The translations under genes were made by a program, and so were the position numbers. 64,000 nt of DNA from positions 1-64,000 of the forward strand of contig CANSCI010000004.1 of the NCBI GenBank assembly GCA_947645355.1, given 5' to 3'. The notes under the pieces are model-generated. The model was given only the letters and a program-made list of their open reading frames with translations. It had not been told where the DNA came from and did not search any database. Position 1 is the stretch's first letter. Every line of letters starts with the position of its first letter. Below, piece by piece: positions 53,505-64,000 of the stretch. This DNA is from an uncultured Dorea sp. GTDB taxonomy: Bacteria; Bacillota; Clostridia; Lachnospirales; Lachnospiraceae.

Positions 53505-54707
53505 TCAGAAAGCCCCAATTACCCAGGCCACGAAAGCCAGCACATTGCATTTACAGTATACCGTTCCTCTCCCAAATTCATAATGACGTCTTCTTACAAA
53601 ATAATAATCTGCAATAAGAACTCCTGCTGATGGCGGAAGTGCAACGCCTAAAACAGACAGCCAGCGGCTAAAATGATTCGAAATACCTAATACTCCCAAA
53701 ATTGTTGCTGCAATACCTGTCACCAGAACAATATATCTCTTTTTGCCTTTGATAATATTTGAAAATCCCAGAGAAGCAGAATACAAATTGTTATCATTAG
53801 TTGTCCATTGTGCTGCTATGAGCACTAAAAGTGCCGGGAAGCCAAGTCCCATCTGGATCATTGCAGCAGGCATATTATCATTTCCTGTTGCCAAACAGGT
53901 AATAAACCCTGCAATAATAATAAATGTATTTCCTCCTAAATATCCTAATATTGTACTGGTTACGGCAATGCGGGGAGTTTTTGCATACCGTGTAATATCT
54001 GCTTGTGCACATCCCGCTGTTGCAATAGAACCCACTACCATCACAATAGCTGCACTGATACTCAATGGCGCTTTCGGCTGCATTGCCGTAAGAACACTCA
54101 ATCCTCCTGCACGGCTTGTCCCTGCAATTACCGCTGCAATAGAAAGCAGGATAATGAGAGGTACTGCAATCGTACTTAAAATAGAAAGGCCTTTATATCC
54201 TACATATGCGGTGATCATCATTAAAATACCACCCCAGAATGCTGCCACCGAAACTTTGGTGATAAAACCGCCGCCTGGGAATAGAGCATGCAGGGTTTCT
54301 CCAAAAAAACCTACCTGCACCGAATACCAGCCCAGCATTACGATCGCAATGACAAAACTAACAATGAAAGACCCATAGCGCCCAAAAGAATGCCTCATCA
54401 ACATAGAAGTGGACACCCTTTCTTTTGCACCAATATACCCTACAGCACATGCATAAGCCACTACGATACAGTTTCCGAAAAATGAAACCAGAAGCCCTTG
54501 TACAAGAGTAAGCCCAAATGCCAATGCGGAACCTGTAAAAAGTCCAGAGACACAAATACAATATCCGGCGCTTACAAAGGCCAAGTTCAAAAATCCCCGA
54601 CTTTCGCTGTCTGGAACACGCTGTGTAGCATTATCATTACTATACACGGCCATCTTATCTTCCTGTGTACTGCCTGAAAAATCTTTTTGATTGTCACTAT
54701 AACTCAT
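53505..54707 (-). CDS. NCS1-family cytosine/purine permease (CodB-like), C-terminally frameshifted
   Basis: A 400-residue membrane protein with about eleven helices. Family signatures include SAGYCICVSGLFTGSALAFGL at the N-terminus, GWYSVQVGFFGETL, SIATAGCAQADITRYAK and the late WLSVLGVALPPSAGVLIADYYFVRRRHYE. CodB-like proteins import cytosine, hydantoins or other nucleobases with a cation. The frame ends in WVIGAF-TGA, while homologues continue with a last helix; that helix is present one frame over (53410-53504). So the gene has a single-base deletion, or the sequence has an error. DUF917 and PucR neighbours suggest nucleobase or hydantoin use. Confidence 0.85.
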   Translation of the reverse strand: MSYSDNQKDFSGSTQEDKMAVYSNDNATQRVPDSESRGFLNLAFVSAGYCICVSGLFTGSALAFGLTLVQGLLVSFFGNCIVVAYACAVGYIGAKERVSTSMLMRHSFGRYGSFIVSFVIAIVMLGWYSVQVGFFGETLHALFPGGGFITKVSVAAFWGGILMMITAYVGYKGLSILSTIAVPLIILLSIAAVIAGTSRAGGLSVLTAMQPKAPLSISAAIVMVVGSIATAGCAQADITRYAKTPRIAVTSTILGYLGGNTFIIIAGFITCLATGNDNMPAAMIQMGLGFPALLVLIAAQWTTNDNNLYSASLGFSNIIKGKKRYIVLVTGIAATILGVLGISNHFSRWLSVLGVALPPSAGVLIADYYFVRRRHYEFGRGTVYCKCNVLAFVAWVIGAF

Positions 54708-54807
54708 AGTTCACCTCCTCTTTTAGTATAAGAACCATGTAACCCTTCGATTACATAAATGAAGGAAATGCAAAACAATACTTATTGTCTGCCCTTACGA
54801 TCCTTAA

Positions 54808-55932
54808 TTATCCCATCAGATCCTCAATCGGAACATAATCATAATCATAGCCAAAATATCTGGCACTTAGAATGGAAAGCCCTTTTTCTGTCCTAAACTG
54901 AGCGTTTCCTTTCATTCCAAGGACTGCAACATGATTTCCTTCTCGAATATCGGTATTTGTAATAGGTTCCGCCGTCTTTGCATCTACTACCTCAATTAAA
55001 TCAGGGCTGCATACATACGGCTTTCCATCCAACCACGAAACATGATTTTCATTTTTATACCAGAACTTAAAGGTATGTCCCTCAAATTTTCCGGTTCCTT
55101 TGATAGTACAATCTCCAATCAAATATCCCGCAGAATCAATCCAACTCTTTCCAGAAACAATGCCCTCAAATAACTGCCATGCATCTGCCGCCTCCATTGC
55201 CGCCTTCACCGGATCATCTCCCGCTTCCCTTGCCTGTCGGATAGCTCGTCCAAGATTTAAACACTTAGTCAATGTTCCTGGAATAATTGCTTTTTTCATA
55301 TCCTTTCCTTTGATCACAAGACCGCTCTCTGCACAGATCACCATAGCATTTGTACTGAATCCCTTACCAAATACCTCTACCATCTGACTGTTTACCGAGT
55401 TTTCAATCGTTAGTACATTGCCCCACCGGTCACAGCTTACTACCGGCGTCAGGTTAAAATCGTACAACATGGGGGAAGCCTGCGGCATTTCCGGCAAAGC
55501 GCGTCCGCTGTAGTCTCCGTCTACTACATGCATCTTCAACCGCGCAGCTGCATCAACCGGCGCCGGTGTATTGATGCCTCCCAGTTCAAAAGGAACTAAT
55601 GCGTCAAATTTTTCTACGCCCATTCTGGCTGCCAATCCTTCAATTGAAGCTGCCATTTCCCGCTCTACCGTCTCTTTACACAGCCCTTTTTCAGCCATTT
55701 CTTTCTTTATTTCTGGTTTTGCCGGTGCAATTGATCCCATAAAAAGCGACATACAAGTCAAAGCGTCATCTGGAATACTCATAGGGTCTATCCAACCCAG
55801 TTCCAGCCCATCTTCCAGATCTTCCAGCAGATATCGAAGGCCCACATCCTGTGGGCCGCCTCCCCCAGTACCCATAAATGTACATCCCCGTACAAAATCC
55901 CTTGCATCCGTTTCTGTTTTGATCGTAATCAT
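54808..55932 (-). CDS. DUF917 family protein (S-methyl thiohydantoin desulfurase-like)
   Basis: A 374-residue soluble protein. The GTGGGGPQDVGLRYL motif near residue 22 is the DUF917 signature. FELGGINTPAPVDAAARLKM and VVDGDYSGRALPEMPQ follow. Members in the hydantoinase neighbourhood remove sulfur from methyl-thiohydantoins or are tied to hydantoin breakdown; most are uncharacterised. It lies upstream of the permease on the same strand, so both are likely one operon under PucR control. No hydantoinase gene is in the window. Confidence 0.85.
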   Translation of the reverse strand: MITIKTETDARDFVRGCTFMGTGGGGPQDVGLRYLLEDLEDGLELGWIDPMSIPDDALTCMSLFMGSIAPAKPEIKKEMAEKGLCKETVEREMAASIEGLAARMGVEKFDALVPFELGGINTPAPVDAAARLKMHVVDGDYSGRALPEMPQASPMLYDFNLTPVVSCDRWGNVLTIENSVNSQMVEVFGKGFSTNAMVICAESGLVIKGKDMKKAIIPGTLTKCLNLGRAIRQAREAGDDPVKAAMEAADAWQLFEGIVSGKSWIDSAGYLIGDCTIKGTGKFEGHTFKFWYKNENHVSWLDGKPYVCSPDLIEVVDAKTAEPITNTDIREGNHVAVLGMKGNAQFRTEKGLSILSARYFGYDYDYVPIEDLMG

Positions 55933-56074
55933 ACGCTCTCCTCCTTATATTATAATTCTACTTCTATTATGATTATATATTCTGTATTTTCTTGCATATA
56001 GTTTTTATAGTACAAAAATTTTATATATATTTTGTTTATTTAGACAATTCATTTCACTTTTATGTGAAATCAGT

Positions 56075-56206
56075 TTAAACTGCTTTAAACTGCCTTACTA
56101 TAATGAAAAAGTGATTTTCAACCTGTAATATAATAAAGCCCAGCATACGCTGGGCGGGATTTTCTCTTTCCTTGTCGATGCGATGGAAGATCTCACTCTC
56201 TGCCAT
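56075..56206 (-). CDS. Possible small protein or remnant (43 codons)
   Basis: Below the ORF-track cutoff. An ATG frame reads MAESEIFHRIDKERENPAQR and continues to a TAA with a hydrophobic stretch (MLGFIILQVENHFFIIV). The start has only a G-run (GGGGGA) close by, not a normal ribosome site, and the PucR terminator hairpin lies inside it. It reads like protein but may be a fragment. Confidence 0.25.
   Translation of the reverse strand: MAESEIFHRIDKERENPAQRMLGFIILQVENHFFIIVRQFKAV
56138..56155 (-). terminator. Terminator of the PucR-type regulator gene
   Basis: A perfect 7-pair stem GCCCAGC/GCTGGGC with an ATAC loop, followed on the minus strand by TTTATTATATT. Confidence 0.7.
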
Positions 56207-56243
56207 TCCCCCAAAATCCTCATGGATACATCATTGGAAAGTT

Positions 56244-57848
56244 TTAATTATTTAAATTTAAAATACGATGAATAGCTAATGCCAAATAAAGATAATGATT
56301 TCCGCGAAATTCGAAATACTCGTTCCCTAAAGCAAGACGGGCTTTTCGAATTCTATATTTGATAGTATTGACATGGACAAACATTTTTTCTGCTGTTTTA
56401 GAAATATTTCCGTCAGTGTCCAAGAAAAAAATTTCCAGAGTTTTAATTATTTCATCTCTGTCTTTGATCCTGTTAAGCGGAGCTAAAACCAATAGGTTAA
56501 ATTCCATTTTCTGAGAATTATTTGAAATAATACGCTTACAATCTTCTGCAATACGTATAGAAAGCATATCAAATACTGACCGCAGAGGATTAATACGCAC
56601 CATAAAATCCCAACAGCTGCATATGGATAAATAAATATCCTTAATAAATGTAAGAGAATCCATCTGCATATATGCCAATTTAACAGAAAATGACTTCTCG
56701 TTCAGGATTGCATATAAGGAGGACGCCAGTTCCTTTAAATCACTAAATGTCAGATTCTCTAAAAGCAATACGATCACGGCCTCTTCTGATATATCCAGTA
56801 AAGAAGAAAACTTCTGTGAATCAAAAAAGGCGGCAGTCTCCCTGCCAAGGCGCTGTAATTGAATTTCCCTTGCGCGAACAGACTCACTGCTCAACCGGAG
56901 ATAGAAAAGCGTTCCCGATTCTTTTTCATAGTCAGAGATATTTTTAGCGTTCGACGTTTCATCATGAAACGTACCGGATAGTAAAGTTCGAAGAAGCGTA
57001 GAATGCTGTTTTTCTTTAAATCCCAAATGCCAGACATCATCCGCAATCGAAAGAATTTCGGACGCCTGACGCAGCAACAGGGGATCCATTTTCCTGCTGG
57101 ATGTTATACAAAAAAGAAATAACGGCGGAAAGACGCGGGATGCTGCATCTTGAAAATGTAAATACAGAGTCCTGTTCCCAACCGTTTGAGAAACGGGAGA
57201 GAACTTGCTGATAATTAATTCATCCAAACTGATATCTACCAGAAAATCTTTCATTGTTATATTAGGAAGGGAAGGAGGGCACCACTCGGAAATGTATGTT
57301 AAGTCTGAACGATACAAGAACAAATGACTTTCAATATTCTGTCCGATCAATTCCAAAAGTTTTGTGACAGTACGCCGGGATTTAGGAAGAACAGAAAAAC
57401 GATAGAGAACCTTGTCAAAAAAGCGGCACTCGGAAGATCTTTTCAAGTATAAGGACTCCATGATATCCTGGATCATTTCACTGTAGCTGACATCCTGATT
57501 AGAAAAAATGACAAGCAAAGGATAATCCAGTTGATCAGCCAAAGCTATAAGTGCCCCGTCTACATCAGGCATGACAATTCCAATATGAAACAAAACCAGT
57601 GCTGCAGTCCCGAGTTTTTGGAGTTGACGGAGGGTAGAACATTGAGCGCTGACATCATTTTTTTTGCTGTAGAAAGAAGTAATGACGATATCACCTTCTC
57701 CAAAAAAGGGTGACCGGAACATTTCCTTGTCAGACCATTCGAGAACAGTACAAGAACGCACAGGACGGGACAATCCTTTCTTCCCGCCTACTACTTTGGC
57801 TTTGGAAAAAGAAGCCATACTCAAACAGTCCTTTACCGTTAAATCCAT
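56244..57848 (-). CDS. PucR family transcriptional regulator
   Basis: A 534-residue regulator. The N-terminal PucR-like domain (LTVKDCLSMASFSKAKVVGGKKGLSRPVRSCTVLEW) covers ~1-125 and is thought to sense purine-pathway compounds. The middle is a GGDEF-like-fold linker without catalytic motifs. The C-terminus has the PucR HTH (KTLEIFFLDTDGNISKTAEKMFVHVNTIKYRIRKARLALG). In Bacillus, PucR controls purine breakdown. Its place beside a nucleobase-type permease and DUF917 fits that role here. Confidence 0.9.
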   Translation of the reverse strand: MDLTVKDCLSMASFSKAKVVGGKKGLSRPVRSCTVLEWSDKEMFRSPFFGEGDIVITSFYSKKNDVSAQCSTLRQLQKLGTAALVLFHIGIVMPDVDGALIALADQLDYPLLVIFSNQDVSYSEMIQDIMESLYLKRSSECRFFDKVLYRFSVLPKSRRTVTKLLELIGQNIESHLFLYRSDLTYISEWCPPSLPNITMKDFLVDISLDELIISKFSPVSQTVGNRTLYLHFQDAASRVFPPLFLFCITSSRKMDPLLLRQASEILSIADDVWHLGFKEKQHSTLLRTLLSGTFHDETSNAKNISDYEKESGTLFYLRLSSESVRAREIQLQRLGRETAAFFDSQKFSSLLDISEEAVIVLLLENLTFSDLKELASSLYAILNEKSFSVKLAYMQMDSLTFIKDIYLSICSCWDFMVRINPLRSVFDMLSIRIAEDCKRIISNNSQKMEFNLLVLAPLNRIKDRDEIIKTLEIFFLDTDGNISKTAEKMFVHVNTIKYRIRKARLALGNEYFEFRGNHYLYLALAIHRILNLNN

Positions 57849-57939: not shown

Positions 57940-58842
57940 TTATGAAGACCACTTTTCAGATGCTGCCTGAATCCCAGCGACCGCGCCGTCTGCAACTGCC
58001 GTAGCCACTTGTCTTATCTTCTTTACGCAGATATCTCCTGCCGCAAATACTCCCGGAATCTGCGTCTGCATGGAATGATCAACCGGAATATATCCGTCTT
58101 CCAGCTTCAATTCCGTATACATCTGGGTATTGGCAACAATTCCCGCATATACAAACACTCCGCACTCTGCATCCTTTACAATCTGCTTCTTTCCCGTTCT
58201 GTTATCTGTAAACTCAAGCTGTTCTGCCGCCCCGTCTCCGTATACCGCAGTGAGGCTCGAATGCGGCATGACCTCTATAGAATCACAGACAGCAGCCTTA
58301 TCCTTGAATTCCTGAATACATGCCAGTTCATCCTCCACGCAGACAATCGTAACCTTTCCCGCTATTTGGGCAAGATACAGTGCTTCCTTCACCGCCCCGT
58401 CCGCTCCGCCGATAACATAGACATTCTTTCCTTTATAATCCGGCCCGTCTTTCGGTGCATTTAATCTGACACCCTTAAGGTCTTCCCCCGGAATTCCCAG
58501 CATACGTCCGGAACCGCCGTTTGCAAGAATTAAAGCTTTCGATTCATAACTCCCTTTATCCGTAATGACTTTTTTTATTTCGCCGGCAAGCTTTGTCTGC
58601 ATCACATTTTCATAGCGGATCTCCACACCGGCTCCAAGCGCCTGCTCTTTCATCCGTTCGGCAAACGTATGGCCGGATTCTCCCTGAACAATTGCTGTAT
58701 AGTGTGTAACTGTGGACACGGTTCCGATCAAACCGCCCACCTGCTTCTTTTCCAGCACCAAAACACTTTTCCCTCTGCTTTTTCCATAGACAGCCGCACT
58801 AATCCCGGCCGGGCCGGCGCCGATCACAATGATGTCATACAT
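57940..58842 (-). CDS. Thioredoxin-reductase-like flavoprotein without redox cysteines
   Basis: A 300-residue FAD/NAD(P)-binding protein. The FAD motif is IGAGPAGISAAVYGKS at the N-terminus; the second dinucleotide motif is VIGGADGAVKEALYLA; the FAD closing motif AAGDICVKKIRQVATAVADG is present. The CxxC disulfide expected between them is absent: that region reads LNAPKDGPDYKGKNV. It therefore cannot reduce thioredoxin and may pass NAD(P)H electrons to a ferredoxin or flavoprotein. Start at the ATG 58842 with GGGGAGGAT upstream. It ends the Etf operon; a hairpin separates it from the isomerase gene. Confidence 0.85.
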   Translation of the reverse strand: MYDIIVIGAGPAGISAAVYGKSRGKSVLVLEKKQVGGLIGTVSTVTHYTAIVQGESGHTFAERMKEQALGAGVEIRYENVMQTKLAGEIKKVITDKGSYESKALILANGGSGRMLGIPGEDLKGVRLNAPKDGPDYKGKNVYVIGGADGAVKEALYLAQIAGKVTIVCVEDELACIQEFKDKAAVCDSIEVMPHSSLTAVYGDGAAEQLEFTDNRTGKKQIVKDAECGVFVYAGIVANTQMYTELKLEDGYIPVDHSMQTQIPGVFAAGDICVKKIRQVATAVADGAVAGIQAASEKWSS

Positions 58843-58968
58843 TTTTGTATCCTCCCCATACATAAAAAATAGCAGGCAATAATTAATCTCCCGGCTTTTC
58901 CCGGCTATTAACATATGCCTGTTATCCATTGTTCCCTGTCCATTCAGACATTATTCGAAGCATTCTGC

Positions 58969-58998
58969 AAAGGGCTGACAAAAAACTGACAGCCCTTT
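58969..58998 (-). terminator. Hairpin between isomerase-like and TrxR-like genes
   Basis: An inverted repeat AAAGGGCTG / CAGCCCTTT with an inner TCAG/CTGA pair, 24 bases after the isomerase-like stop. It lacks a T-run on the minus strand and is more likely an attenuator than a full stop. Confidence 0.5.
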
Positions 58999-59022
58999 TA
59001 TTGTATTTCAAATCATATCGTA

Positions 59023-59844
59023 CTATTTCACGCCGCAGTCCTTTAGGAATATGGCTGTTTTTCCGGCATCCTCCTCCGGCGCTTTGCTCTCAGCATCACA
59101 TTCTACCGCCAGCTCTATCTTTTTATCACTTTCCTGCAGCAATCCTAGAATAGGCTTAAAATCTATAAGTCCTTTATCAAGAGAGCAGAACCTGCCTTTT
59201 TCATCCACACCCTTCAGGTGAAAATATTGAATCCGCCCAATGTATTTTTTCGCTACATCATAAGGGTTCCCTCCCCCTAATGCCACATGTCCGCAATCCG
59301 GGCAGAGCCATACTTTTGTATGCTCCATCACCTTATCAAGCTGTTCCGGGCTTTCTACCAGTGAACCCATATGAGGGTGGAAACTTGTTATAAGGCCAAT
59401 TTCCCCGGCCCTGTCAGAGATCCCATCCAACGCTTTCCCCAGTTTTTCATAATCAGATTCCCGGATACCCCGGCAGCGGACTGCGCCTCCTCCCAGTACC
59501 AGATGCCTGGCGCCCAGTTTCCTGGCAAGCCGGGCCGTACGCATGATCTTGGCGTACTCCTCTTCAAGTATTTCATCATAAATAAAATTAGCGGCACTAT
59601 ATACAGCCTTAAGGGACACCTGGCATCTTTCCAGAAGAATCTGTAGTCTCCCCGGATCATCCTCATATGCAAGCAGGTTCCCATCAAACATTTCAACACT
59701 TTCATAGCCGGCCTTTGCAATCCCCCTGACTGCATCCTCATCACTTCCTGTGGCTACATAATATGCATAATTTACATTATTCGAACCACAGCAATGGGTA
59801 GTAACTTTTCCCCATGCATTCGTACTGTACGCAACATCCATCAT
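59023..59844 (-). CDS. Xylose-isomerase-like TIM-barrel protein (sugar phosphate isomerase/epimerase family)
   Basis: A 273-residue AP endonuclease 2-like TIM barrel. Metal-binding positions of the fold are visible: Glu in YESVEMFDG, His in ITSFHPHMG, Asp/His in CPDCGHVALGGG, His in RIQYFHLKG and Glu in KIELAVECDAE. Family members isomerise or epimerise sugars, and some cleave C-glycosides or dehydrate inositols. The ATG overlaps the EtfA stop (ATGA), which is striking: a sugar-type enzyme is coupled to an electron-transfer flavoprotein. Substrate is unknown. Confidence 0.82.
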   Translation of the reverse strand: MMDVAYSTNAWGKVTTHCCGSNNVNYAYYVATGSDEDAVRGIAKAGYESVEMFDGNLLAYEDDPGRLQILLERCQVSLKAVYSAANFIYDEILEEEYAKIMRTARLARKLGARHLVLGGGAVRCRGIRESDYEKLGKALDGISDRAGEIGLITSFHPHMGSLVESPEQLDKVMEHTKVWLCPDCGHVALGGGNPYDVAKKYIGRIQYFHLKGVDEKGRFCSLDKGLIDFKPILGLLQESDKKIELAVECDAESKAPEEDAGKTAIFLKDCGVK

Positions 59845-61037
59845 CTTCCCTCCTGACTATCCAGCATCCGTCCCATCTGCTCGGCAATTTCTACGCATTC
59901 TCCAAGAATTGCCTCATCACACATGGAAAATATAGGAGCAGCCGGATCATTATTAACTGCAATCACATGTCCTGCATTCCGAATTCCAATGGTATGCTGC
60001 AGTGCCCCGGAAACTCCAAAGCTTATATACAGATCCGGTGCAATGGTCTTTCCGGTCTGCCCCACCTGGATATCAAAAGGAGCCCATCCTTCATCCACCA
60101 CCTTGCGGGTAGCTCCAAGAGCCGCACCCATCTTTACCGCCAGACGCTCTATCTTCTTAAAGTTTTCCTCACTCCCCACACCGTATCCGGCTACGATCAC
60201 CACATCCGATTCCGCCACATTTTTGTATGAATTAGGATTTTCCCCAAGATAAGTACGCCTTGTCCTTTTTGAATTCACATCCAGATCAAAATCCATCTCC
60301 GTTATCTGTGCCCTTTTCCCTGCGCTGCATTCCCTGACCGTAAATACATTCGGTCTGACGGACGCCATCTGAGGCCGGCACCCTGGCGTGATAATAGACG
60401 CCATAATATTTCCTCCATAGGTAGGACGGATCTGTACCAGATTCCGATCCTTATCTACGTCAAATCCTGTGCAGTCTGCAGTAAGTCCTGTCTTAAGCTT
60501 CGCTGATACCCTGGGCGCCAGATCTCTTCCGGTCTCTGTTGCCGGCATAAAAAGAACGGATGGACAGCGCTTTTGACAGATTTTTTGAATCAGATCTGCA
60601 TAAATATCTGTATTATACTCTCTAAGAATCTCGTCTTTCACTACGATCACTTCATCACACCCGCAGGCTCCTGCCTGCTCCGGCAGCCCTTCCGGAATGC
60701 TCCCACATAACAACAGAAGTCTGAGTTTCTCTCCCAGCTCGTCCGCAATCCGCCGTCCCTCTGCAAGAAGTTCTAAGGTAACTTTCCTTAGTCTTCCTGT
60801 CACAGGTTCCAGCTCGGCTGCTATATATACGTCCTTATATCTGTCTATATCTTCTTTGTCCACTTCCTTTTCTTCTTTGAGTATCGCTGCCTCGGGGCAG
60901 ACGTCTGCACACACGCCGCAATTCTGGCAGGTATCCATCACAAGCACCGTCCCATGTTCTGCCTTGAGTGCACCAAAAGGACAACTTTCCACACAGATGC
61001 CGCACCCTATGCATTTTTCTTCATCTATCCTGACCAT
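59841..61037 (-). CDS. Electron transfer flavoprotein alpha subunit with N-terminal 2[4Fe-4S] ferredoxin domain
   Basis: A 398-residue protein. Residues 1-65 are a ferredoxin domain with two cluster motifs, CIGCGICVESCP and CQNCGVCADVCP. The EtfA body follows, and the FAD-binding end is clear: GYGVGSEENFKKIE, TRKVVDEGWAPFDIQVGQTGK, APDLYISFGVSGALQHTIGI and NNDPAAPIFSMCDEAI. With EtfB it forms a heterodimer that accepts electrons from a dehydrogenase flavoprotein. The fused ferredoxin suggests direct exchange with ferredoxins. Whether it bifurcates electrons cannot be told here. Confidence 0.92.
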   Translation of the reverse strand: MVRIDEEKCIGCGICVESCPFGALKAEHGTVLVMDTCQNCGVCADVCPEAAILKEEKEVDKEDIDRYKDVYIAAELEPVTGRLRKVTLELLAEGRRIADELGEKLRLLLLCGSIPEGLPEQAGACGCDEVIVVKDEILREYNTDIYADLIQKICQKRCPSVLFMPATETGRDLAPRVSAKLKTGLTADCTGFDVDKDRNLVQIRPTYGGNIMASIITPGCRPQMASVRPNVFTVRECSAGKRAQITEMDFDLDVNSKRTRRTYLGENPNSYKNVAESDVVIVAGYGVGSEENFKKIERLAVKMGAALGATRKVVDEGWAPFDIQVGQTGKTIAPDLYISFGVSGALQHTIGIRNAGHVIAVNNDPAAPIFSMCDEAILGECVEIAEQMGRMLDSQEGR

Positions 61038-61066
61038 ATTCCTTCTCCTTTCTTTCCGTCCCTTAT

Positions 61067-61918
61067 CTATGGCAGTACCTTCGACATCTCCGGAATGCTC
61101 AATATCTTTTGCGCCAGGGATTCGGCAGAACCGCGCATAAATTCTACCTGTGCCTTCTGTTCGATTCCCCCGTTGATAATCATCTGAATCCGCTCTCTTG
61201 CAGGCAGGGTATCATCAATCACTACATAACTCTTCTGCCTTGAATCCGACATCTGAATTTTCACTACTCTGGTGGGAGATCCTGCACTCCCAACACGATC
61301 CGGGTTCAGTCCCTCTACAGCGCCAGCTCCTACTTTCTCAGGTGTACGCCCGCAAGACTTACCTTCTCTTGGAACAGCACTCTGCCTCATAACACAGACA
61401 AGTATCTTCTGCTCTGTCTCATGCTGCTCCATATATTTTCCGACGCTTCTTGTGATTTTCCATTTTTTCCCTTCGCGCGCAATACCATTTACGTAAGTAA
61501 ACTGTGCAATATTCAGATTTTCTGCTATGATGGGGCCTACCTGTCCGGTGCTTCCGTCAATGGCCTCCGCACCGCATACGATCAGGTCATATTCAAGACC
61601 GCCAATAAACTGAGACAGTAAATATCCGGTCGCAAGTGTATCTGAACCTGCGAACGTCCGGTCCGAAAGCAGGTATGCCTCATCTGCCCCCATATCCAGG
61701 GCCTGCTGCAAAACCTCCTCTGCCTGGCCTGGCCCCATAGATACAACTGTCACCTTCCCTCCGTAGTTCTCCTTCAGCCGCAGAGATAATTCCACACCTG
61801 CTTCATCAAAAGGATTCATAATTGAAGGGACTCCCTCTCTTACCAGGTTATTTGTCTCTTTATTGATCTGTACCTCATTCGTATCGGGAACTTGCTTTAT
61901 ACATACAACTATATTCAT
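61067..61918 (-). CDS. Electron transfer flavoprotein beta subunit
   Basis: A 283-residue EtfB. Signatures are MNIVVCIKQVPDTNEVQ at the start, NPFDEAGVELSLRLKE, VTVVSMGPGQAEEVLQQALDMGADEAYLLSD and YDLIVCGAEAIDGSTGQVGP. It lies just upstream of the EtfA gene (29-base gap) and just after the flavoprotein gene (12-base gap). The order flavoenzyme-EtfB-EtfA is that of a dedicated electron-transfer unit. Confidence 0.92.
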   Translation of the reverse strand: MNIVVCIKQVPDTNEVQINKETNNLVREGVPSIMNPFDEAGVELSLRLKENYGGKVTVVSMGPGQAEEVLQQALDMGADEAYLLSDRTFAGSDTLATGYLLSQFIGGLEYDLIVCGAEAIDGSTGQVGPIIAENLNIAQFTYVNGIAREGKKWKITRSVGKYMEQHETEQKILVCVMRQSAVPREGKSCGRTPEKVGAGAVEGLNPDRVGSAGSPTRVVKIQMSDSRQKSYVVIDDTLPARERIQMIINGGIEQKAQVEFMRGSAESLAQKILSIPEMSKVLP

Positions 61919-61930
61919 CAGATGTCCTCC

Positions 61931-63901
61931 TTATATCCCTCTTCCTGCCAGTTCTGCATCAAAGATTACCTGCTCGATGGCTCGCGGCGCAACACAGTCC
62001 CCCACTGCACGGATATCTTTGCCCGCCGCCTTGAGTTCTTTATACAGCTGATTGTCTGAACTGCTCTGCGCCGCTATAATGACAGTGTCATATCCTCCAA
62101 GTACCCTCTCGGCCTGGCTGTATACATTACGGATGGTCACTTTATCACCTTTAATCTCCGAAATAGTGTGAGAAGCGATAATCTCTGCCCCTCTCTCATA
62201 GAGCCGCTTCAGCAGCAGGGTATTGTTCGTTCCTTCTATATCACATCCAAGAAAATTACTGGTGGTGACAATAGTTGTATCCGCTCCCAGCGCAGTCACA
62301 TAGTCTGCCGTTCCGCCGGCCTGATAATATCCAATATCATCAAAAATCAATACCTTCTGCCCGATAAGTTCCAGATGCCTCATGGCCTGACGGCAGTCGA
62401 TCACCCGTATCCCTGCCTCATCCATTTTGATATAATCAGGGATTACCGGAACGGAACCTGTCGCGGCAATGATAACATCCGGCGCTTCCTGCTCCACCAG
62501 TTGTCTATCTACCCTGGTGTTCAGGTGAATATCTACGCCGTGCCGCTTCAACTGATATTTCAGATAGCGGTATACTTCCCCCACCTCTGCGCGGTACGGC
62601 ATCTTCTCGATCAACAGGACCTGACCTCCAAGCTTGTCACTCTGTTCATACAACGATACGCTGTGTCCTCGTTTTGCGGCTATTTCTGCTGCTTTCATGC
62701 CGCTGATCCCTCCTCCGATCACCAGCACCTTCTTACCTGCTTCCGCCGGTGTAAGAGTCCCGATTCCAAAATACTTTTCTCTTCCTGCCCCTGGATTCTG
62801 TACACATTCCACATCGATGCCGTCATTTCCCAGACAGCCCTCATTACAAGCTATACAGTGGCGAATATCATCCAGCTCTCCCCTCATCGTCTTGTTCGGG
62901 GTCTCCGGGTCGCAGATCAGCTGCCGGCACATACCTACAAGATCCGCACAGTTTTCACTAAGCAGCATTTCTGCCTGTACAGGATCATTGATACGCCCAA
63001 AAGCAATAACCGGAATGTCTACTGTCTTTTTCAGTTCAGCGCTCATATAGAGGGCAAATCCAAGAGGAACTACTGCCGGAGGGATCTCCATATAAAAAGA
63101 GCTGAAGGAGCCTGCATCTGTACTAAGATAATCTACTCCCGCTTCCTCCAACCGCCGGGCCACCTTCAGGCCATATTCCATGGAATATCCTCCCTCTATG
63201 AATTCATCGACGCAAAGTCTGATTCCAATCGGATAATCCGGCCCCACAGCTTTACGGATAGCCTCTATAATTTCCAGCGGATAACGCATCATGTTCTCAA
63301 AACTGCCGCCATATTCATCCTCTCTTTTATTAAACAAAGGTGAAATAAAAGTTCTCAGCAGACCATCGTGAGCGATCTTAAGTTCCACCGCATCCCATCC
63401 CACGCCTTGCTGAAGCACCGCGGCTTTGACATAATAATCTTTGATCTGCTCCATTTCCTCTTTTTCCAGTTCTTTTGTATTAAAATGACAGGATGGCTCC
63501 GGCATCTGGGACGGCGCCACAAGAATCTGCGGCGGATTCTTCAGTGTATTATGTCCTCCATGGTTAAGCTGCGTAATGCATCTGCATCCGTATTTATGTA
63601 CCTCCTCTGCCAGCCTTCTGAAATTCTCCCTGTTTCTCGGGTCGCTCCCTACGGGATATTCATCTGACATCATGCTGTGGGGATCCACGTTCTGGCTTAC
63701 GGTTACCGCCGCAGCCCCGCCCTTGGCCCGCTCCACATAGTGCTGGATATTCCGCTCCGAGAACAGGCCGCAGTCCATCCAACCTTCGTCAATGGCATAT
63801 CCGGTCAGGTGGGGTAAAAATATAAATCGATTTTTCAGTTCCATCTTTCCTATTTTGAATGGGGACAATAATTTCGTAAATTTCTGATTTGTACCTTCCA
63901 T
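61931..63901 (-). CDS. TMADH / 2,4-dienoyl-CoA-reductase-like flavoprotein (FMN, 4Fe-4S, FAD)
   Basis: A 656-residue three-part enzyme. Residues ~8-345 are an old-yellow-enzyme FMN barrel (LLSPFKIGKMELKNRF, QLNHGGHNT, RTFISPLFNKREDEYGGSFENM). A 4Fe-4S motif follows: CIACNEGCLGNDGIDVEC. Then come FAD and NAD-type folds (VLVIGGGISGMKAAEIA, KVLIFDDIG, AVGDCVAPRAIEQVIFDA). This is the family of trimethylamine dehydrogenase, dienoyl-CoA reductase and BaiCD/BaiH. TMADH's FMN-linking Cys is replaced by Leu (LPHLTG), so FMN is not covalently held that way. With EtfBA downstream, the enzyme probably oxidises or reduces an unknown substrate through Etf. The start codon has a weak ribosome site. Confidence 0.87.
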   Translation of the reverse strand: MEGTNQKFTKLLSPFKIGKMELKNRFIFLPHLTGYAIDEGWMDCGLFSERNIQHYVERAKGGAAAVTVSQNVDPHSMMSDEYPVGSDPRNRENFRRLAEEVHKYGCRCITQLNHGGHNTLKNPPQILVAPSQMPEPSCHFNTKELEKEEMEQIKDYYVKAAVLQQGVGWDAVELKIAHDGLLRTFISPLFNKREDEYGGSFENMMRYPLEIIEAIRKAVGPDYPIGIRLCVDEFIEGGYSMEYGLKVARRLEEAGVDYLSTDAGSFSSFYMEIPPAVVPLGFALYMSAELKKTVDIPVIAFGRINDPVQAEMLLSENCADLVGMCRQLICDPETPNKTMRGELDDIRHCIACNEGCLGNDGIDVECVQNPGAGREKYFGIGTLTPAEAGKKVLVIGGGISGMKAAEIAAKRGHSVSLYEQSDKLGGQVLLIEKMPYRAEVGEVYRYLKYQLKRHGVDIHLNTRVDRQLVEQEAPDVIIAATGSVPVIPDYIKMDEAGIRVIDCRQAMRHLELIGQKVLIFDDIGYYQAGGTADYVTALGADTTIVTTSNFLGCDIEGTNNTLLLKRLYERGAEIIASHTISEIKGDKVTIRNVYSQAERVLGGYDTVIIAAQSSSDNQLYKELKAAGKDIRAVGDCVAPRAIEQVIFDAELAGRGI

Positions 63902-63931: not shown

Positions 63932-64000
63932 TCACAATGCCCTCCTTTCTTCTATCGATTTCTGTGCGAAGCCCCGGAAAACATCCGCCATATCATGACT
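63932..64000 (-). CDS. C-terminal end of an upstream gene (partial)
   Basis: The window edge holds 22 codons in an open minus-strand frame (SHDMADVFRGFAQKSIEER, then stop TGA at 63934-63932). A strong AAAGGAGGG lies inside its last codons, directed at a GTG overlapping the stop. The product is unknown. Confidence 0.4.
   Translation of the reverse strand, partial: SHDMADVFRGFAQKSIEERRAL

Follow-up and report, generated by a model that had tools for sequence, protein, structure and literature searches.

The 3-keto-glycal route is a recently recognized means of glycoside cleavage. Electron-bifurcating electron transfer flavoproteins (ETFs) are a main energy-saving device of gut anaerobes, few of their partners are known, and the customary partner of the ferredoxin-fused class is an acyl-CoA dehydrogenase. 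The levoglucosan cluster of Bacillus smithii encodes LacI, a substrate-binding protein, an ATPase, two permeases, and lgdA, lgdB1, lgdB2, and lgdC, with LgdB1 acting as 3-keto-levoglucosan beta-eliminase and LgdB2 as hydratase (PMC7676230). C-Glycoside deglycosylation by DgpABC or DfgEAB proceeds by Gfo/Idh/MocA 3-oxidation followed by a TIM-barrel enzyme (PMC8563793). CarE, part of a reductive bifurcating enzyme, has two clusters, the EtfA of lactate dehydrogenase has one, and electron transfer to NAD+ in the Ldh-EtfAB complex is aided by reduced ferredoxin (PMC9232219). Here we analyze a 64,000-base stretch (the window) that makes up the first 64,000 of the 73,796 bases of contig CANSCI010000004.1, from a draft genome (87.9% complete) of an uncultured Dorea sp. 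It contains a flavoenzyme of the old yellow enzyme (OYE)/trimethylamine dehydrogenase (TMADH) family and a bifurcating-class ETF within a sugar operon. Our best reading is that the OYE-ETF pair acts across C1-C2 of a 3-keto sugar, with making the enone favored over reducing it and with direction and substrate both putative.

Five minus-strand genes at positions 57940 to 63901, with 12- and 29-base gaps and with four bases (ATGA) shared by EtfA and the TIM-barrel gene TIM2, lie exactly as described in the original prediction, which was made from the letters of the window. The domains of all five are supported by Pfam, far above cut-off. They close an 11-gene operon of the minus strand, which continues about 6.7 kb beyond the window and is ordered, from its 5′ end, as Gfo, TIM1, four ATP-binding cassette (ABC) transporter genes, OYE, EtfB, ferredoxin-EtfA, TIM2, and a thioredoxin reductase (TrxR)-like gene. 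Of the second ABC permease gene, the 3′ end lies in the window (63952 to 64000, minus strand). The genes upstream of position 64000, to which the original prediction had pointed, are two RbsC-type permeases, an RbsA-type ATPase, a periplasmic sugar-binding protein, TIM1, and a Gfo/Idh/MocA dehydrogenase on the same strand, with a LacI gene divergent from Gfo. They reach contig position ~71980 (L009 7953-15981; window position = L009 position + 55999), and the importer belongs to the monosaccharide class (rhamnose, allose, ribose). These sugar importer and sugar enzyme genes bear out the earlier proposal that a sugar-containing compound is handled. Intergenic gaps across the eleven genes range from -14 to +93 bases. 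By consensus scan only, the LacI/Gfo intergenic region holds the best sigma-70-like match of the minus strand, and no convincing terminator was seen within the eleven-gene run.

The flavoenzyme and its electron transfer partner

The OYE (61931 to 63901, minus strand; 656 amino acids), assigned by Pfam, alignment, and tree, has FMN, 4Fe-4S, and FAD-type domains. Alignment shows that the GxGxxG NAD(P)H motif of its second Rossmann domain is lost, with a 2-residue insertion. The same loss and insertion are found in TMADH, histamine dehydrogenase (HADH), and mycofactocin OYEs; the motif is retained in 2,4-dienoyl-CoA reductase, two further OYEs of the same genome (C28 and C100), and the OYE of G181. 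Because the motif is lost, Etf rather than NAD(P)H probably feeds or drains the window OYE. With etfBA adjacent, the enzyme looks built for the electron exchange with Etf that the original prediction had proposed. The six OYEs encoded in sugar-transport operons, from six genomes, group on a single branch (support 100/98) of a 31-protein tree, and the next relative is a haloarchaeal mycofactocin OYE.

The shared domain plan, the 4Fe-4S cluster, the putative Etf partner, and the loss of the NAD(P)H site could also point to an amine dehydrogenase like TMADH and HADH, with an amino sugar or cyclitol amine as its substrate. The position of TMADH Cys30, which carries 6-S-cysteinyl-FMN, is Leu in the window OYE (PHLTG versus PHCIG), Trp in the OYEs of Candidatus Scatomonas pullistercoris and genome G458, and Phe in that of Shinella. 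The active-site Tyr preceding the conserved His is Lys, and the active-site Trp is Phe; a KIAHDG motif is common to the window, Scatomonas, G458, and Shinella OYEs. We reject an amine dehydrogenase identity because the flavin-binding Cys is Leu and the Tyr before the His is Lys. In addition, the ETF is of a different class, and TMADH and HADH sit on a distant branch of the tree. Such an amine dehydrogenase is therefore most improbable, and the N-methyl and betaine substrates suggested earlier lose their footing with the covalent-flavin Cys of TMADH and HADH.

The BaiCD model (NF041087) gives 399.3 bits against a cut-off of 825, which speaks against the bile acids also raised in the original prediction, and membership among the bilirubin enzymes scores below the curated cut-off. 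The closest OYE family is mycofactocin OYE 2 (TIGR03997), which occurs with Etf, a FixC-like protein, and ferredoxin and shares the Etf-linked architecture and the lost NAD(P)H motif. However, the window OYE scores 595.6 bits against a cut-off of 793, no mftC lies above cut-off in its genome (best family score, 79.6 versus 265 bits), the ETF is of another class, and the neighbors are sugar genes. Two further OYE loci were observed. On contig C28 of the same genome (L010 5488-10652), a second OYE with its NAD(P)H motif kept accompanies a shikimate-dehydrogenase-like gene, a TIM barrel, and an MFS transporter, and this may be a reductive quinate/shikimate cluster. In genome G829 (L088 8978-17063), two OYE-type flavoenzymes, EtfB, and EtfA lie beside hydantoinase-like and isochorismatase-like genes, another uncharacterized OYE-Etf setting.

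EtfB (61067 to 61918, minus strand) has the bifurcating or confurcating ETFs 5ol2, 4kpu, 7koe, 6fah, and 7qh2 as its best five PDB matches (148 to 177 bits), and the remaining PDB ETFs score 38 to 69 bits, the TMADH-ETF 47.5. EtfA (59841 to 61037, minus strand), assigned by Pfam, PDB match, and motifs, matches CarE of 6fah best (303 bits, end to end), and its N-terminal ferredoxin domain carries one complete CxxCxxCxxxC motif at residue 9 and another at residue 37. Both the two-cluster fusion and the involvement of ferredoxin had been claimed in the original prediction. By sequence class, EtfBA is an electron-bifurcating (group 2), ferredoxin-fused ETF. In comparison with CarCDE (PDB 6fah), EtfB also aligns with CarD over most of its length, but the partner differs from those of CarCDE and Ldh-EtfAB (PDB 7qh2) in being an OYE/TMADH-family flavoprotein rather than an acyl-CoA or lactate dehydrogenase. 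Comparable EtfA proteins occur in 54 of 399 genomes of the phylum. An OYE stands beside none of the 29 such loci other than that of the window, and the gene before EtfB is recognizable from its sequence as an acyl-CoA dehydrogenase in 8 of 10 inspected loci.

The TrxR-like flavoprotein (57940 to 58929, minus strand; the start may be 58860) reads "gvrlnapkdg" where thioredoxin reductase reads "gvsycavcdg," so that the redox CxxC is gone, as predicted. It also has CVEDELACIQ in place of the usual HRRxxxR NADPH motif. It is possibly a ferredoxin or NADH oxidoreductase. The gene is not present in the sister operon of Scatomonas.

The sugar enzymes

TIM2 (59023 to 59844, minus strand) had been labeled xylose-isomerase-like. 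The protein is no xylose isomerase: among curated models it comes closest to the inosose dehydratase IolE, below cut-off. An AlphaFold model from the single sequence reached a pLDDT of only 39. TIM2 is 46.8% identical to a TIM barrel in a Metabacillus cluster and 43.4% identical to one in a Klebsiella plasmid cluster. The Gfo proteins of these two clusters are levoglucosan dehydrogenases by curated model (758 and 749 bits; cut-off, 650). Its position and size are as for LgdB1, the sequence comparison being with TIM barrels beside LgdA. TIM1 carries a DPSHF..Q..DY segment in common with PDB 8ro4, a 2-hydroxy-3-keto-glucal hydratase, and with LgdB2-position proteins of Klebsiella and Agrobacterium; overall similarity is weak. 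In Enterococcus raffinosus, a 53% identical relative of TIM1 is clustered with PF19906, the beta subunit of C-glycoside deglycosidase (CGDB), and with Gfo, TIM-barrel, and ROK kinase genes. Because TIM2 has kin beside true LgdA, TIM1 has the hydratase motif, and TIM1 has kin in a C-deglycosylation cluster, the sugar part of the operon looks, at the level of families, like 3-keto-glycoside chemistry.

The Enterococcus cluster lies on a megaplasmid (L061 8326-13862) and runs Gfo, TIM barrel, CGDB beta subunit, Gfo, TIM1 relative, and ROK kinase. Two plasmids of Klebsiella pneumoniae (L058 and L063), one a conjugative IncR/IncU plasmid and the other IncR, carry the levoglucosan-type operon with a dehydrogenase above the curated cut-off, preceded by IS5 elements.

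The operon shares with the Lgd pathway LacI, a substrate-binding protein, an ATPase, two permeases, a Gfo/Idh/MocA dehydrogenase, and two PF01261 TIM barrels, TIM2 being putatively LgdB1-like and TIM1 putatively of the LgdB2-like class. It differs in that Gfo is not LgdA by the curated model, LgdC is missing, and the Etf-linked OYE, EtfBA with its fused ferredoxin, and the TrxR-like protein are added. C-Glycosides were among the substrates suggested earlier. The upstream genes stand near the C-glycoside 3-keto route, with which the operon would have in common a C3 oxidation by Gfo/Idh/MocA and a TIM-barrel enzyme as the next step, and TIM1 has relatives in such a cluster, but unlike DgpABC/DfgEAB the operon has no deglycosidase beta subunit PF19906; none was found genome-wide either, in a search without a positive control.

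Polyphenol-reducing OYE-type enzymes are present in the gut, and together with the TIM1 relatives in a C-deglycosylation cluster they allow the OYE-ETF to be read as acting not on the sugar but on an aglycone, a flavonoid or other enone freed by 3-oxidation and elimination. The monosaccharide type of the importer and the failure to find CGDB in the genome, in the search without a positive control, argue against such a substrate, as does the lack of recognized aromatic genes in the related operons of genomes G815 and G928. We consider action on an aglycone quite unlikely.

The myo-inositol-to-propionate route of Anaerostipes, which uses IolGEDBCJ with an acyl-CoA dehydrogenase-Etf, was also considered and set aside as a different gene set.

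Context in relatives and direction of the reaction

The pathway is rare: it occurs in 3 of 397 genomes of the family, and a GTDB genome scan with the OYE as query returned one close relative. After this single match, neighborhoods were traced via TIM1, TIM2, and plasmid records. The operon of Scatomonas (Lachnospiraceae; L013) comprises LacI, a Zn-dehydrogenase, a substrate-binding protein, an ATPase, a permease, a further TIM barrel (TIMa), Gfo, TIM1 (57% identical to that of the window), OYE (55%), EtfB, and ferredoxin-EtfA. Beside it (L013 14313-21954) lie TetR, a TIM barrel, a trimethylamine-methyltransferase-like protein, MFS and SSF transporters, and a hydantoinase-like gene. G458 (L022) encodes the importer, TIMa, OYE, EtfB, and ferredoxin-EtfA together, with TIM1 (62%) at the edge of another contig. 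In G815 and G928, Bacillota of a different family, LacI, TIMa or TIM2, and the importer accompany an OYE (47%), EtfA, FixC, a FixX-like ferredoxin, and EtfB, along with Gfo (45% identical to that of the window), a DPSH-type TIM barrel of the hydratase type, and a ROK glucokinase-like kinase.

The hydratase-type TIM barrel thus shares an operon with OYE in the window genome, Scatomonas, G815, and G928; in G458 it is encoded on a separate contig. The constant set is the importer and OYE with ETF, joined, where enough DNA is available and with the exception of Shinella, by Gfo and the hydratase-type TIM barrel. The set need not include the eliminase-type TIM2, which is missing from the Scatomonas and G815 operons. 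The ETF is bifurcating and ferredoxin-fused in three Lachnospiraceae and of the FixABCX type, leading to quinone, in two other Bacillota. In an EtfA tree, the gut OYE-ETFs group with ferredoxin-EtfA and the G815 and G928 proteins fall elsewhere, several branches being long and weak. These gene contexts and the EtfA tree indicate that the OYE stays with the sugar pathway and that the ETF varies by lineage.

This conserved pairing also bears on whether one transcript simply joins a sugar-uptake operon to an unrelated redox cassette. Close spacing can arise from chance neighborhood, and the sister operon lacks both TIM2 and the TrxR-like gene. However, importer and OYE are kept together in Scatomonas, G458, G815, and G928, across two families, and we regard two unrelated functions as improbable.

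The direction of the OYE reaction is harder to assign. In the opposite sense to our best reading, TIM2 would make an enone from a 3-keto-glycoside by beta-elimination and OYE-EtfBA-ferredoxin would reduce it with NADH while also reducing ferredoxin by bifurcation, yielding a deoxy or anhydro sugar. This would provide an energy-conserving electron sink, and it is consistent with a TIM2 of the beta-eliminase type, a two-cluster bifurcating-class ETF as in caffeyl-CoA reductase, the classical role of OYE enzymes as ene-reductases, and the availability of Rnf to use reduced ferredoxin. On the other hand, the same OYE clade is elsewhere coupled to FixC/FixX and quinone and accompanied by a glucokinase, which fits oxidation, the hydratase-type TIM1 of the operon would vie with OYE for the enone, and TIM2 is missing from the Scatomonas and G815 operons. 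Enone reduction is thus rather unlikely, though it is the chief rival reading. The oxidative direction is favored because G815 and G928 have a quinone-linked version together with a kinase. RnfC, encoded in the window genome, could handle ferredoxin whichever way the OYE-ETF runs.

Directly downstream of the operon on the same strand (53505 to 57848), an NCS1 cytosine/purine-type permease, a DUF917/S-methylthiohydantoin-desulfurase-like protein, and a PucR-type regulator make up what looks like a separate hydantoin-type operon.

The proposed route and its significance

From the gene set, the enzyme families, the loss of the NAD(P)H site, the ETF class, and the conserved context, all of which are read from sequence, we infer each reaction of the following route. 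The importer would take up a glycoside, an anhydrosugar, or a 1,5-anhydrohexitol, and Gfo would oxidize its C3 hydroxyl. The Etf-linked OYE would then strip two hydrogens from C1-C2 beside the ketone, giving a 2-hydroxy-3-keto-glycal, which TIM1, judged by its family, would hydrate to a 3-keto-sugar. When the substrate has a leaving group, TIM2, again judged by its family, may give the same enone by beta-elimination. OYE would hand its electrons to EtfBA, of the bifurcating type and fused to ferredoxin, from which they would go to NAD+ in the manner of Ldh-EtfAB; in a fermenter this last transfer would need the help of reduced ferredoxin. In the other bacteria that carry this OYE, the electrons would run through a FixABCX-type set to quinone. 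That a LacI-controlled operon imports such a compound and degrades it via 3-keto intermediates, with the OYE-ETF desaturating C1-C2, is a real possibility that we hold at somewhat below even confidence. Only tentatively do we propose a previously undescribed route in which the substrate that the OYE desaturates is a 3-keto-1,5-anhydro sugar, such as one derived from 1,5-anhydroglucitol, and the electrons go to the ferredoxin-fused, bifurcating-type ETF.

Several observations weigh against this route. The two-cluster ferredoxin-EtfA is nearest to the reductive CarE, and TIM2 could itself make the enone without OYE. The nearest curated model for Gfo, levoglucosan dehydrogenase NF052479, gives 185.2 bits against a cut-off of 650. 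Only one Gfo is found among the operon genes, with neither a kinase nor a second Gfo (LgdC). In the Shinella relative, TIMa and an SDR protein are present, and no Gfo or hydratase was recognized in the stretch seen.

Each enzyme comes from a known family, yet we found no described pathway with this gene set. The original prediction had stated that the genes match no known pathway, and this stands for the set as a whole, although most of the genes are near the levoglucosan/C-glycoside 3-keto pathway. Because the operon departs from BaiCD, mycofactocin OYE 2, TMADH, LgdA, and Dgp on a defining test of each, we place it outside the nearest named systems. Among open-licence papers, we found none joining old yellow enzyme, electron bifurcation, and Etf, and nothing pertinent on anhydroglucitol catabolism.

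If the proposal is true, this would be the first bifurcating or confurcating ETF paired with an OYE, as far as we have found, with a quinone-linked (FixABCX-type) version elsewhere. The operon would add a redox step to the 3-keto-glycal route. The OYE clade offers a clean comparison between a ferredoxin-ETF in fermenters and a FixABCX-type set in other Bacillota, and an OYE/TMADH-family partner inside a sugar operon would widen what bifurcating ETFs can drive.

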